Positions 28,904-34,810 of a stretch of 64,000 bases of DNA are shown piece after piece. The stretch is from the NCBI RefSeq assembly GCF_002224645.1, contig NZ_CP022121.1:930001-994000 (forward strand), in the 5' to 3' direction. The translations under genes were made by a program, and so were the position numbers. The DNA comes from Dehalobacterium formicoaceticum (GTDB taxonomy: Bacteria; Bacillota; Dehalobacteriia; Dehalobacteriales; Dehalobacteriaceae). Numbering within the stretch: the stretch's first letter is position 1; every line of letters begins with the position of its first letter. The notes under the pieces were generated by a model. It worked only from the letters and a program-made list of their open reading frames with translations. It was not told the origin of the DNA and searched no databases.

Positions 28904-31495
28904 TTGAATAAGAAGTTACTTACAGCTCTGCTTGTGCTGGCAATGTTATTTAGCTTCGGGACTGCAGCTTTTGCAGCAACCTTCAGCGATATAGCTGACC
29001 TGAGCAAAGACACGCAAGCAAGCATTGCCAAATTGAATGCACTGAACATAATTAATGGTTATCCCGATGGCACATTTAAACCTGCCAACAACATAACCAG
29101 AGCCGAATTTGCTAAAATTGCCTGCATCGCAGGGGGAATGGGTACCAGCGCTGAAATGCTGCAAGGCACCGCTTCCAGATTCAGTGATGTTGCTGCCAGC
29201 CAATGGTATACCGGATATATCAATCTGGCTAATTCCCAAAACTGGGTAAAAGGTTATCCCGATGGAACCTTCCGTCCCAACAACCAAATTTCCTATGCTG
29301 AAGTAATCACCGTTTTAGTCCGTATCCTGGGCTATAATGACAACCTGCCTGGTCCTTGGCCGGTAGATTACATTGCCAAAGCCGGTGCTCTTGACATTAC
29401 CAAGAATGTTTCCTTTAATGCCAATGCACCTGCCACCCGCGCTGATGTAGCTGTGATGGCTGATGAAACCTTGGATGCCACGATCGTGAAGTGGGATAAT
29501 GACACCCAAGACTTTGAAAAGAAAGAAGACCGCAAAGGCAACGAAATTACCTTGCTGGATGATGCTTTTGATACCGCTGTCAATGAAGACTACTGGGTCA
29601 CCGACTCCGAGTATGATAACGGCGTTTGGAGCATCAAAGTAAAAGCTACCGACGAAGATGAAGATGCTTTGGATGGTAAATGGTTAGACTTAAATGCAAA
29701 CTGGATGGCTTCCGATGCCTCCCTGGCTAACGGCTTAGGCGACAAGATCGTCGACATCCTTTATGATTCTGACGAAGAAGAAGTTCTTTACACTGAAGTA
29801 CTCTCCACCCGTGTAACTGTAGACGGTGAAGATTGGGAATACGACAAGAATAAAGAAGAATTCAAAATCGATGGCACCAAGTATGACAAAGCCGATTATT
29901 TTACAGGCAATGAATACGGTGAAACCGGCGCCACCGCTTATGATGATGACGGCTACTATCGCGCTTACGTAAACGAAGACAAAGAAGTTTATAAAGTTTC
30001 CAGAAGAAATGAAAAAACTCCGGCCATTGTTGAGGAATTTGACGGCGAACTGACCTTAAAAGACCCGGGTGATTTTGGCGACAATGATCAAGCCGAAAAA
30101 ATTGACTTCAAAGATGATACCGTATTGGTTGAAAAAGGCGGCGCTTTTGTTGAGCCTAAAGCCTTGGCCGAAAACGATGTTATCTATGTTACCGAAGACC
30201 TTTATGGCTACGACTACTACATCGAAGTAGCTGGATCCGTTAACAAAACCGGTAAATTAGATTCTTACAAAACGAACAACGGTAACGTTACTTCTGTAAG
30301 AATTGATGGTACCTCCTATGATGTAGCAGAGTATGACTTGCTTTCTGACAACGAAGGTAAAGATTTCAACAAAGCCATTACCGAGAAAAATATTGAAGAC
30401 TTTGACGGCAAAACCATCACCTATTTCTTAAACAAAGCAAATCAAGTTTGCATCATCATTACCGGTGAAGCAGGCGAAGGCAGCAACAGAATCTACGGTG
30501 TGATTACTGATCTGGGTTACAGATATGGCAATCCTGCCAAGATCAACGAAATTAAAGTTTTGAAGGCTGACGGCAAAGAAACTACTTATGATGTGGATAC
30601 TGATGAAGTAGAGATTTATGAAGACGAACTGAATATTGATGAATTCATCAAATTCGCAGTTAACGCAGATAATGACATCGACAGCTTAACCGTATTGGCT
30701 CAATTAAATGACGACGAAGTAATTGTTCCTACCACTGCAGGTAAGGATCCAGACTTTGACGATTACATTGATACCGATAATGATGAGTATGTTGGTGATT
30801 TAACTGATGGGAACAGCGACAATAACAGAATCAGATTTGAGGGCAAATGGCTCACCTTGGATGACAAGACTGTAGTCTTCAATGCCGGACGTTTCATTGA
30901 TGATGATGCTGAAGTGATCGACAATGATGATCTGGTTGATTGGGCTGAGGATCTTACTGGAGCAGTAACAGTTTATGTTGAATATTCCAACTCCAAAGTA
31001 GAGTATGTTTATCTCAATGATGATGTGACTTCCGCTACGGCCGTTGATTATGCCTTAGTTCTGGATAACTATAAGAAATCCGGGAAAGATTGGGTAGAAA
31101 TCGATGTCAAAGGCACAGCACAGAATTATGAAGTGAAAAATAATATTCCTGTAGAATATGCGATCTACGATTACTCCATTTCCAGCAATAAGTTCTCCGT
31201 GAAGAATACCGACATGGTATTTGATCCTGAGGATGTAACTGCAGGCTCCTACTATGAAGTAGAAGATGTTGACAGATCCGGCAATGCGATTAAGATGGAC
31301 GGCGAATGGTTCTATGGTGATGCAGATACTATCATCTATGACTACACCGACTACTATGATGATGGAGATGATCCCCTCTATGCTTCTTCTGTAAGAGCAA
31401 TCAGCAAGGGCGATCTCGTTTTCGCCATCATGGATGATAAGGATCCTGATGTTGTTAATCTGTTCGTAATTGTTACCGGAGTGGATGCAGAGTAA
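28904..31495 (+). CDS. S-layer protein with N-terminal SLH domains
   Basis: Probable main S-layer protein, 863 residues. Signal peptide about 1-25 (TAAFA-AT). Three SLH repeats follow to about residue 190, with motifs ITRAEFAK, ISYAEVIT and ATRADVAV; SLH domains bind pyruvylated secondary wall polymer, consistent with csaB at 48.3 kb. The remaining 670 residues are very rich in Asp, Glu, Asn and Tyr with no Cys-rich or catalytic motif, as in self-assembling S-layer proteins. TTG start at 28904 after GGGGGA. Codon use is strongly biased to GAC, GAA, AAA and TAC, as in highly expressed genes. Confidence 0.9.
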   Translation: MNKKLLTALLVLAMLFSFGTAAFAATFSDIADLSKDTQASIAKLNALNIINGYPDGTFKPANNITRAEFAKIACIAGGMGTSAEMLQGTASRFSDVAASQWYTGYINLANSQNWVKGYPDGTFRPNNQISYAEVITVLVRILGYNDNLPGPWPVDYIAKAGALDITKNVSFNANAPATRADVAVMADETLDATIVKWDNDTQDFEKKEDRKGNEITLLDDAFDTAVNEDYWVTDSEYDNGVWSIKVKATDEDEDALDGKWLDLNANWMASDASLANGLGDKIVDILYDSDEEEVLYTEVLSTRVTVDGEDWEYDKNKEEFKIDGTKYDKADYFTGNEYGETGATAYDDDGYYRAYVNEDKEVYKVSRRNEKTPAIVEEFDGELTLKDPGDFGDNDQAEKIDFKDDTVLVEKGGAFVEPKALAENDVIYVTEDLYGYDYYIEVAGSVNKTGKLDSYKTNNGNVTSVRIDGTSYDVAEYDLLSDNEGKDFNKAITEKNIEDFDGKTITYFLNKANQVCIIITGEAGEGSNRIYGVITDLGYRYGNPAKINEIKVLKADGKETTYDVDTDEVEIYEDELNIDEFIKFAVNADNDIDSLTVLAQLNDDEVIVPTTAGKDPDFDDYIDTDNDEYVGDLTDGNSDNNRIRFEGKWLTLDDKTVVFNAGRFIDDDAEVIDNDDLVDWAEDLTGAVTVYVEYSNSKVEYVYLNDDVTSATAVDYALVLDNYKKSGKDWVEIDVKGTAQNYEVKNNIPVEYAIYDYSISSNKFSVKNTDMVFDPEDVTAGSYYEVEDVDRSGNAIKMDGEWFYGDADTIIYDYTDYYDDGDDPLYASSVRAISKGDLVFAIMDDKDPDVVNLFVIVTGVDAE

Positions 31496-31612: not shown

Positions 31613-31705
31613 GAGAATCAAGGGGACAGGTACATGGAGAATCAGGAGAATCAAGGGGACAGGTACATGGAGAATCAGGAGAATCAAGGGGACAGGTACA
31701 TTGAT
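31613..31705 (+). repeat. 33-bp tandem repeat, 2.8 copies
   Basis: Unit GAGAATCAAGGGGACAGGTA plus CATGGAGAATCAG, at 31613-31645, 31646-31678 and a partial third from 31679. The first two copies are identical. The 33-bp length keeps one frame open (repeat MENQENQGDRY), but no good start or context supports a gene. The GGGGACAGG core recurs elsewhere in the window. Confidence 0.85.
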
Positions 31706-32280: not shown

Positions 32281-33165
32281 ATGAAAAAAAATATTAAATT
32301 ATCTATTATTCCGCTGCTTTTTATTTCTTTGCTTACCCTTGCAATTGCCGGTTGTGGTTCAAACGGCACCTCAGACAATGGAGCAAGCGGAGACAGCACT
32401 AAGGTTAAGGTTATTGACATCCCACTGACCCAAGAAGAATATGCTTTCGGTGTGGACAAAAGTCAACCGGAACTCCTTACGCAAGTAAACGAATTTATTC
32501 TTAGCATTAAATCAGACGGAACATTTGACGAAATTTTAAACAATTATTTTGGTGACGGTGAACCTAAAGCCATTACTTCTGCCAAATTAGATAGCAGCAA
32601 AGATCAGCTTATTGTAGCTACAAATGCCGCCTTCGAACCCTTTGAATATACTGCCGGTGATAAGTATCACGGGATTGATATGGAAATTGCCGCACTTCTG
32701 GCGGAACGTCTCGGCAAAGAGCTTGTAATCAGTAATATGGATTTTGATGCTGTCTGTCTCTCAGTAGGACAGGGTAAAGCTGATATTGCCATGTCCGGTC
32801 TTACTATTAAAGAAGATAGAAAAGAATATGTGGCGTTTTCGGATGCGTACTATAATGCCGCGCAGAAGGTTGTTGTTAAGGGAGAAGATACAAGCTTTGA
32901 TCAAAGCCAAACAGCAGCTGATGTGGAAGGGATTTTATCCGGATTCAGCAGTGATACTAAAATTGGTGTTCAGACAGGAACAACCGGACAATTCTATGTT
33001 GAAGGTGATAAAGATTGGGGCTTTAGCGGACTTAATGCAACCGCTGTAGGTTATAAAAACGGTTCTCTTGCTGTCCAGGATATGATTAACGGAAATATAG
33101 ATTATGTTATTATTGATGAAGCTCCTGCCCAGTTTATTTCACAAGCCATTAATAACTTAAACTAA
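32281..33165 (+). CDS. Amino acid ABC transporter binding lipoprotein, circularly permuted
   Basis: Extracellular solute-binding lipoprotein of 294 residues from the ATG at 32281, after GGAGAGG. Lipobox LAIAGC (Cys about residue 22). The order of the SBP_bac_3 fold is changed: residues about 40-95 (LTQEEYAFGVDKSQPELLTQ, SDGTFDEILNNYFGDG) match the usual C-terminal end of the family, and only then come the usual N-terminal strand (LIVATNAAFEPFEYT, GIDMEIA) and lobe 2 (GVQTGTTGQFYVEGD, VIIDEAP). The protein stops where the normal C-terminal segment would begin. The next two genes encode the permease and ATPase. Probably takes up a polar amino acid. Confidence 0.87.
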   Translation: MKKNIKLSIIPLLFISLLTLAIAGCGSNGTSDNGASGDSTKVKVIDIPLTQEEYAFGVDKSQPELLTQVNEFILSIKSDGTFDEILNNYFGDGEPKAITSAKLDSSKDQLIVATNAAFEPFEYTAGDKYHGIDMEIAALLAERLGKELVISNMDFDAVCLSVGQGKADIAMSGLTIKEDRKEYVAFSDAYYNAAQKVVVKGEDTSFDQSQTAADVEGILSGFSSDTKIGVQTGTTGQFYVEGDKDWGFSGLNATAVGYKNGSLAVQDMINGNIDYVIIDEAPAQFISQAINNLN

Positions 33166-33243
33166 AAAACTGATCTTAACTAAGTTAAATCAAGCAATAA
33201 AATATCCACATCTAATCAATTAATAATAATCAACAAAAATCAT

Positions 33244-33274
33244 ACAATACTCCGCAAAATGTGCGGAGTATTGT
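33244..33274 (+). other. Intercistronic hairpin between binding-protein and permease genes
   Basis: 13-bp perfect stem (33244-33256 with 33262-33274) with a 5-nt loop and a weak T tail. Typical position for partial termination or mRNA protection that favours the binding protein over the permease. Confidence 0.65.
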
Positions 33275-33291
33275 AGCTTTAGGTGGGTAAG

Positions 33292-34002
33292 ATGGAAAAT
33301 TTTGATAAGAAATTAGACGTGTTTTGGCAAATCTTTTATAACCAAAATGGCTATATAAAAGTTCTGACCGGTCTTCATAACACCCTCTATATTGCTATAG
33401 TAGGACTGGCAATAGGAATTGTCATCGGCACTCTCATCGCCATTGTCAGGGTAATTCCCAAGGACAAAAGATTGCCTAGAATATTAAACGGTTTTTGTAC
33501 TTTTTATGTAGGAATGTTCAGGGGAACACCTATGGTCGTGCAGCTGTTGGTAGGATATTATGTTATCCTGCCTATAATTGGTGTAAATATGCCGGCCTTG
33601 AATGTATGTGTTTTGGTATTTGGCTTTAACAGCGGCGCTTATGTTTCGGAAATTATGAGAGGCGGCATCCTTTCTGTAGACCCGGGCCAGATGGAAGCAG
33701 GTCGTGCCGTTGGACTAAGCTATGGTGTGACGATGTTAAAGATTGTTGTTCCTCAAGCGATCAAAAATATCCTTCCGACAATGGGCAACGAATTTATTAC
33801 TTTAATTAAGGAAACATCGGTTGTCAGCTTTGTCGGTGCAGCAGACCTTTACGTTGCATTTAACTATATCGGTTCTAACAGTTATGAGTTTATGGTTCCA
33901 TACCTTGTAATGGCGATAATCTATATTGTTCTGGTTGCTTTAGCATCAATGCTGATAAGACTAATGGAAAGGAGCCTAAGAAAAAGTGATAGACGTAATT
34001 GA
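33292..34002 (+). CDS. Amino acid ABC transporter permease
   Basis: Membrane subunit of a polar amino acid (HisM/GlnP-type) importer, 236 residues and about five helices. The family N-terminal stretch [20 protein letters not shown] and the ATPase-contact EAA loop [20 protein letters not shown] are visible. ATG at 33292 after AGGTGGG; the GTG at 33283 is part of the ribosome site. It overlaps the ATPase gene by 17 bases. Confidence 0.92.
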
Positions 34003-34810
34003 TCTCAAGAAAAATTACGGTAAGCTGGAAGTACTAAAGGGTATTTCGACTACCATTAAAAAAGGCGAAAAAATTGCGATCATAGGCCCTTCCGGAAGCG
34101 GAAAAAGCACCTTTCTACGCTGTCTTAACTGCATGGAAGATCCCACAAGCGGTGCAATAATATTTGACGGGGTTAATATTGCTGATAGGAAAGTTAATAT
34201 TAATATTCATCGCCGTCACATGGGAATGGTTTTTCAGCAATTTAATTTATTTAATAATAAGACTGTTATTGATAACATCATGCTTGCCCCTGTCTATCTT
34301 CACACTCAAGATCTGCGCATGAAAAAGCTTAAAAATTTCTTTATCAGAATCAGAAATATATTTACAAATAATAAGAAAACCTATTATGAAATCGATACAA
34401 CCGGTGCAAAAATAAAAGCTGAGGCCAAAGAAAATGCCCTGCGCTTGTTAAGAAGAATTGGACTTGAAGATAAAGCAGATGCTTATCCTTCAACTCTTTC
34501 CGGTGGTCAGAAACAAAGAATAGCAATAATTCGTGCCTTGGCCATGAACCCCAAGGTGATGCTATTTGATGAGCCTACCTCAGCACTTGATCCGGAAATG
34601 GTAGGCGAAGTTCTGGATTTAATTAAGCAACTTGTCGACGAGGGAATGACAATGGTGATTGTAACCCATGAAATGGGATTTGCCAAGGAGGTTGCCACCA
34701 GGGTTTTATTTATGGACGAAGGGAAGATTCGCGAGGAAAATACGCCGGAAGGAATCTTTTCCCACCCGCAAGATCCTAGAACCAAGGAATTTTTGTCAAA
34801 GGTATTGTAA
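33986..34810 (+). CDS. Amino acid ABC transporter ATP-binding protein with an inserted segment
   Basis: ATPase subunit of the polar amino acid importer, 274 residues from GTG at 33986. Walker [10 protein letters not shown] (34-42), Q-loop FQQFNLF, signature LSGGQ (about 171-175), Walker [15 protein letters not shown] and switch His in VTHEMGFA. It is about 30 residues longer than GlnQ-type proteins: a basic, aromatic insertion ([19 protein letters not shown] and flanks) lies between the Q-loop and the signature. All catalytic motifs are intact. Confidence 0.92.

Follow-up and report, generated by a model that had tools for sequence, protein, structure and literature searches.

A circularly permuted amino-acid-binding lipoprotein in Dehalobacterium formicoaceticum, very probably one of several such permutations in Bacillota

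The protein that we describe here, encoded by the ORF 32281-33165 of the window (the whole stretch of 64,000 nucleotides that was analysed), is very probably the circularly permuted amino-acid-binding component, a lipoprotein, of an ABC importer. It very probably represents one of several permutations that arose independently in Bacillota, with a tandem duplication as the probable origin. In the explanation we propose, a short conserved linker would now connect the old C- and N-termini, both located in lobe 1, and the new termini would lie in lobe 2, just ahead of its last strand. The permuted chain would adopt the two-lobed clamp typical of such proteins, with a polar L-amino acid, perhaps arginine-like, as the ligand that it hands to the adjacent permease and ATPase. 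The main physical change would be the displacement of the lipid anchor from lobe 1 to lobe 2.

Segment order and integrity of the window protein

The description of the fold adopted here divides lobe 1 into the segments N and C and lobe 2 into the segments A and B, the canonical family-3 order being N-A-B-C; segment C takes in the final lobe-2 strand as well as hinge 2 and what remains of lobe 1. The product of the ORF is a lipoprotein of 294 aa with the lipobox LAIAGC, and its gene is preceded by a good ribosome-binding site, AAGGAGAGG. Its residues ~41-92 (KVKVIDIPLTQEEYAFGVDK...DGTFDEILNNYFGDG) correspond to the C-terminal segment and its residues ~107-290 to the remainder, so that the canonical chain order is not the one found. 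The departure is one of topology and not of homology, and the protein is therefore a topological variant of SBP_bac_3; it scores 109.2 bits against PF00497, for a curated cut-off of 26.4. The features of the gene and of its operon are collected in Table 1.

Table 1. Features of the permuted gene and of its operon, in positions of the window
Feature	Position	Strand	Basis or remark
Circularly permuted family-3 substrate-binding lipoprotein, order C-N-A-B	32281..33165	+	Sequence and profile alignments, PF00497 matches, AlphaFold
Predicted signal peptide and lipobox, putative lipidated Cys25	32281..32355	+	Motif LAIAGC
Segment C (last lobe-2 strand, hinge 2, C-terminal part of lobe 1), placed first	32401..32556	+	phmmer and profile alignments, PF00497 97-131
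Linker, former C-terminus to former N-terminus	32557..32598	+	Conserved in 56 relatives
Segment N (N-terminal part of lobe 1 up to hinge 1)	32599..32886	+	Sequence and profile alignments, segment HMMs
Segments A+B (lobe 2); chain stops where canonical segment C follows	32887..33162	+	Sequence and profile alignments, segment HMMs
SBP-permease intergenic inverted repeat, 14 bp, perfect	33243..33275	.	Fold z-score -5.8
Amino-acid ABC permease, single copy (BPD_transp_1, HEQRo 3-TM type)	33283..34002	+	Adjoins nearly all permuted relatives
ABC ATPase, GlnQ/TcyN type	33986..34810	+	Domain searches, operon survey
ATPase insertion of ~34 aa, Walker A to LSGGQ; accompanies main CNAB clade	34298..34405	+	Distance 137 vs 103

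The initial annotation had proposed that the segment normally closing the fold comes first and that the chain ends before its usual site. The genome search agrees with it: PF00497 positions 97-131 are matched at nt 962293-962553 (32293-32553 of the window, E 3.6e-6), and positions 1-110 only downstream of them, at nt 962608-963090 (E 1e-23), which are the two matches in swapped order that it had anticipated from a comparison with the family HMM. A family profile built from 56 members aligned residues 10-174 of the chain of PDB 4zv1 with query positions 99-277 (i-E 8.5e-26) and residues 178-233 with query positions 28-83 (i-E 8e-8), and with phmmer AncQR (4zv1), AncCDT-1 (5t0w) and a glutamine-binding protein (4f3p) each gave two collinear blocks in exchanged order. 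The possibility of a chance similarity was discarded on the basis of the profile E-values and of conservation.

The protein contains one N, one A, one B and one C, none of them missing or doubled, which sustains the earlier claim of a permutation with all parts present once. The partial main match reported by the domain search (1-102 of 132) could also suggest a truncated binding protein with foreign sequence added at its N-terminus, or else a tandem SBP that has degenerated. Both readings are extremely improbable and already refuted by the second, swapped-order match: the N-terminal segment is homologous to the C-terminal part that would be missing and is among the best conserved regions, and the single copy of each part and the selection acting on the gene also speak against them. 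The gene is indeed intact and under purifying selection: its comparison with locus L005 gives a dN of 0.17 and a dS of 1.5 (dN/dS ~0.11), which excludes decay, and an assembly artefact is excluded by the existence of 253 relatives, isolates included.

The AlphaFold model of the window protein, computed with 56 relatives, has a mean pLDDT of 92.4 and a pTM of 0.83, its disorder being confined to the first ~12 mature residues. The structure prediction that had been put forward as a check thus yielded a compact, high-confidence model in which the moved N-terminal segment is well ordered (pLDDT mostly 95-98). One detail of the annotation had to be corrected, namely that this segment follows "directly" on the lipobox: a linker of ~16 residues lies between them, mostly disordered (pLDDT 46 and 77 in the first two ten-residue mature blocks). 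When the model was compared with the PDB by Foldseek, family-3 proteins came out on top, aligned with the unpermuted part (for example 8eyz, 3.1 Å over 185 columns); the top matches cover ~171-214 columns with a TM of 0.4-0.53 by query length, as would be expected of an aligner that works in sequence order if roughly one quarter of the chain is displaced.

Model confidence, secondary structure and homology together suggest that the moved segment sits in lobe 1. It could do so in an obligate domain-swapped dimer, the N-terminal segment of each chain completing lobe 1 of its partner, and such an arrangement has a precedent in the ArgBP of T. maritima, the nearest solved relative of the canonical sister, which dimerises through the swap of its homologous C-terminal helix. 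An obligate swap nevertheless appears very unlikely in the window protein, given that the linker of ~14 residues between C and N is conserved and that the monomer model is confident throughout; a clamp completed within a single chain is the reading that we retain.

Operon, binding pocket and lipid anchor

The window SBP gene heads an SBP-permease-ATPase operon, in which the adjacent 3-TM-type permease and GlnQ-type ATPase are those of a polar amino-acid importer, and both genes lie downstream in 102 of the 108 ORFs classed CNAB or CNB. Almost every canonical, ABCN or BCNA operon shows a distance of 103 from Walker A to LSGGQ; the ATPases of the main CNAB clade carry an insertion of ~9-39 residues, which brings this distance to 112-142. 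The one CNAB operon with the full context and a distance of 103 fits L167, an independent lineage with an ATPase of 247 aa against 274; since a CNAB operon can thus lack the insertion, the latter is a mark of the clade rather than of the rotation. The hairpin formed by the inverted repeat between the SBP and permease genes is strong and has no T run on the coding strand; it may set the SBP/permease ratio. Upstream of the operon, and after the gene of an S-layer-like protein (28904-31495), a 33-bp unit coding for ENQGDRYMENQ is repeated perfectly, in 2.7 copies, at positions 31613-31701.

As a pocket reference we used the sequence of E. coli GlnH with ten positions that we take to line its ligand (D10, F13, F50, G68, T70, R75, K115, G119, H156 and D157). 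At these positions the window protein reads NFFGTRQTID, which retains R75, D157, T70 and two aromatics (GlnH numbering), and hence the R, D and T that accommodate an L-amino acid at its amino and carboxyl groups. Most CNAB and ABCN proteins, like canonical sisters, have the same ten residues, and the ABCN protein L100 shares EYWATRQTAD with its canonical twin L189; the pocket residues being identical in permuted and canonical proteins, the rotation has left the pocket alone. Among solved structures, the canonical sister comes nearest to the Thermotoga arginine-binding proteins (T. maritima ArgBP, 4prs/4psh), and our guess, to which the pocket residues also contribute, would therefore be an arginine-like or other polar L-amino acid as the ligand.

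The activity of the window protein would be the ordinary lipid-anchored capture of an amino acid. It has the same segments, the same pocket residues for the alpha-amino and alpha-carboxyl groups and the same type of operon as the SBP_bac_3 proteins AncQR (4zv1), T. maritima ArgBP (4prs/4psh) and E. coli GlnH (1wdn), and differs from them by its rotated order, which places both termini in lobe 2. The lipid anchor would accordingly be carried by lobe 2 in the window type, where canonical lipoproteins carry it on lobe 1. In the ABCN proteins, the breakpoints suggest a chain that ends at hinge 1 and would keep one covalent hinge. Could permutation recur under selection in tethered Gram-positive transporters, docking or clamp dynamics being altered when lobe 2 instead of lobe 1 bears the anchor or the site of fusion to the permease? 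We put this forward as a tentative idea, of rather low probability.

Distribution and origins of the permuted orders

Besides NABC, all three non-canonical orders were recognised in Clostridia by means of segment HMMs: CNAB, which is the window type, ABCN and BCNA. The search of genome contigs for CNAB relatives gave 253 confirmed candidates, of which 80 were retained, so that Clostridia contain at least 80 full-length relatives; among the relatives are the isolates Acetivibrio mesophilus, A. straminisolvens and Thermoclostridium caenicola. The annotation had pointed to similar proteins in gut Clostridia, and it is there too that the genome searches located relatives. CNAB occurs in 20 of 291 genomes sampled from the class of genome G255, but a search at E 1e-40 of 40 genomes related to that of the window found none; this absence suggests that the window genome gained its CNAB gene by horizontal transfer.

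The family designated f86, probably Lachnospiraceae because the named CNAB loci of the same subclade are Lachnospiraceae, was surveyed in 250 genomes with a C-N junction probe, the matches then being read; at least 24 of them had CNAB and no fewer than 48 had ABCN, the probe requiring an intact junction and permutations broken inside N or C escaping it. Across a phylum sample of 299 genomes, the full junction within a single-domain ORF was met in only seven, with a weak eighth match in genome G221. BCNA was met in one family (f73): the full junction was found in 10 of 20 genomes of its order, and all eight of these that were read have BCNA. An apparent avoidance of lobe 1 by the breakpoints was dropped as evidence, since the junction probe would miss such cases, and three single-piece plasmid matches considered as Proteobacterial permuted forms (Phaeobacter, Rhizobium K84 and Shinella) read as canonical. 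The model of an ABCN protein has a pLDDT of 92.5.

The trees were built from sequences rotated back to N-A-B-C. On the careful tree of 64 rows, which is unrooted and omits the divergent, long-branched ABCN group L002, L163 and L183, the four orders need at least five changes. The window-type CNAB proteins form one clade (100/100), the sister of which is the canonical L087, 42% identical; the CNAB protein L167 is nested in a clade whose other members are canonical (100/99), and shares 64% identity with the canonical L211. The ABCN protein L100 is sister to the canonical L189 of the same family, with 78% identity after rotation. The BCNA proteins form one clade (100/99), and the large ABCN group of f86 (79/90) may represent one origin. 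A single origin is rejected by AU tests for CNAB (p 0.012), for ABCN (p 1e-9) and for all permuted proteins (p ~1e-99). The trees of back-rotated sequences therefore indicate that the permuted orders arose independently, the CNAB rotation itself more than once. The canonical order would be the ancestral one, judging from its ubiquity in the family, the unrooted tree giving no direction.

The most likely route to CNAB, ABCN and BCNA would be the in-frame tandem duplication of the binding domain followed by the trimming of both ends. Such a duplication, with the loss of the outer parts, would explain all three rotations alike, and its plausibility comes from a possible intermediate form in family f86, the home of many permuted proteins: locus L148:1410-4313 encodes three near-identical NABC units and a permease in one chain of 967 aa, and the spacing from C to N between its units (16-17 aa) is close to that of the permuted proteins (~20 aa). 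For this step of origin, gene fission and re-fusion in the opposite order is an alternative that we consider unlikely but worth weighing, as in the window genome itself one canonical SBP is divided at hinge 1, leaving an N and an ABC ORF (G000:C1:1320504-1321246). That split, however, resembles recent decay by a short internal duplication, its second half has no signal peptide, and whole-domain tandem repeats do exist in the relevant family, as L148 illustrates. Tandem duplication remains the route that we favour.

Relation to known binding proteins and other arrangements

Natural circular permutations are usually isolated, ancient cases. The present family, from anaerobic bacteria of the gut and elsewhere, combines three non-canonical rotations with at least five order changes, and one of its permuted proteins shares 78% identity and the pocket with a canonical counterpart; the effect of chain order alone on folding, export, hinge dynamics and docking thereby becomes testable. 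For biosensors, whose scaffolds are at present permuted artificially, the family is a source of scaffolds already permuted in nature, and it calls attention to the fact that annotation by domain matches reports permuted SBPs as partial.

The only natural SBP permutation found in the literature concerns another SBP class. TpMglB-2 (Tp0684) of Treponema pallidum is a circularly permuted sugar-binding lipoprotein for which the name "Type Ic" was proposed, with homologues in treponemes and Gram-positives, and its authors suggest tethering as the reason for the permutation (PMC4990184). It belongs to Type I/cluster B, is broken in the N lobe after three strands and has an extra hinge crossing, one lineage being described (PMC4990184). 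TpMglB-2 and the window protein have in common the natural circular permutation of a membrane-tethered binding protein, but the PDB sequence search and the top Foldseek matches assign the latter to family 3, of Type II, and not to the Type I/cluster B sugar fold. Since the present proteins are Type II and TpMglB-2 is Type I, the family-3 permutation is a separate case, recurrent within one family and apparently undescribed: no permuted family-3 SBP was found in literature searches that reached few subscription journals, and no permuted family-3 chain was found in the PDB by sequence or among the top fold matches of a sequential aligner.

In the tandem SBD1-SBD2 of the Lactococcus GlnPQ (6h30), the passage from SBD1 to SBD2 reads in the order of the permuted proteins, but GlnPQ consists of two complete canonical domains where the window protein has one copy of each part. 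The isolated domain 1 of T. maritima ArgBP (6gpc, 6y16 and 7a99), which is no natural permutation, is according to the entry titles a single lobe with ligand, and suggests that lobe 1 can fold as one piece.

Permuted domains also occur in other arrangements. ABCN domains are fused to permeases in at least 13 cases, in chains of ~500-530 aa, and L183 carries the ABCN domain twice in tandem ahead of the permease. The locus L149:1037-3157 encodes a predicted Ser/Thr protein kinase with a transmembrane segment and, at its C-terminal, presumably extracellular end, a CNAB-ordered SBP that is likely to be the sensor domain of the kinase. The window genome has a second SBP of permuted order, an ABCN protein of 245 aa (G000:C1:2358040-2358621; L002:1252-1989), with no obvious signal peptide and not adjoining a permease, which groups with the permease-fused ABCN proteins L163 and L183 and is perhaps a remnant. 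In the split canonical SBP of the same genome (L220, L224), the N and ABC ORFs overlap and the junction peptide MIDKNVIVVPVNSS is repeated, forming a short internal duplication.
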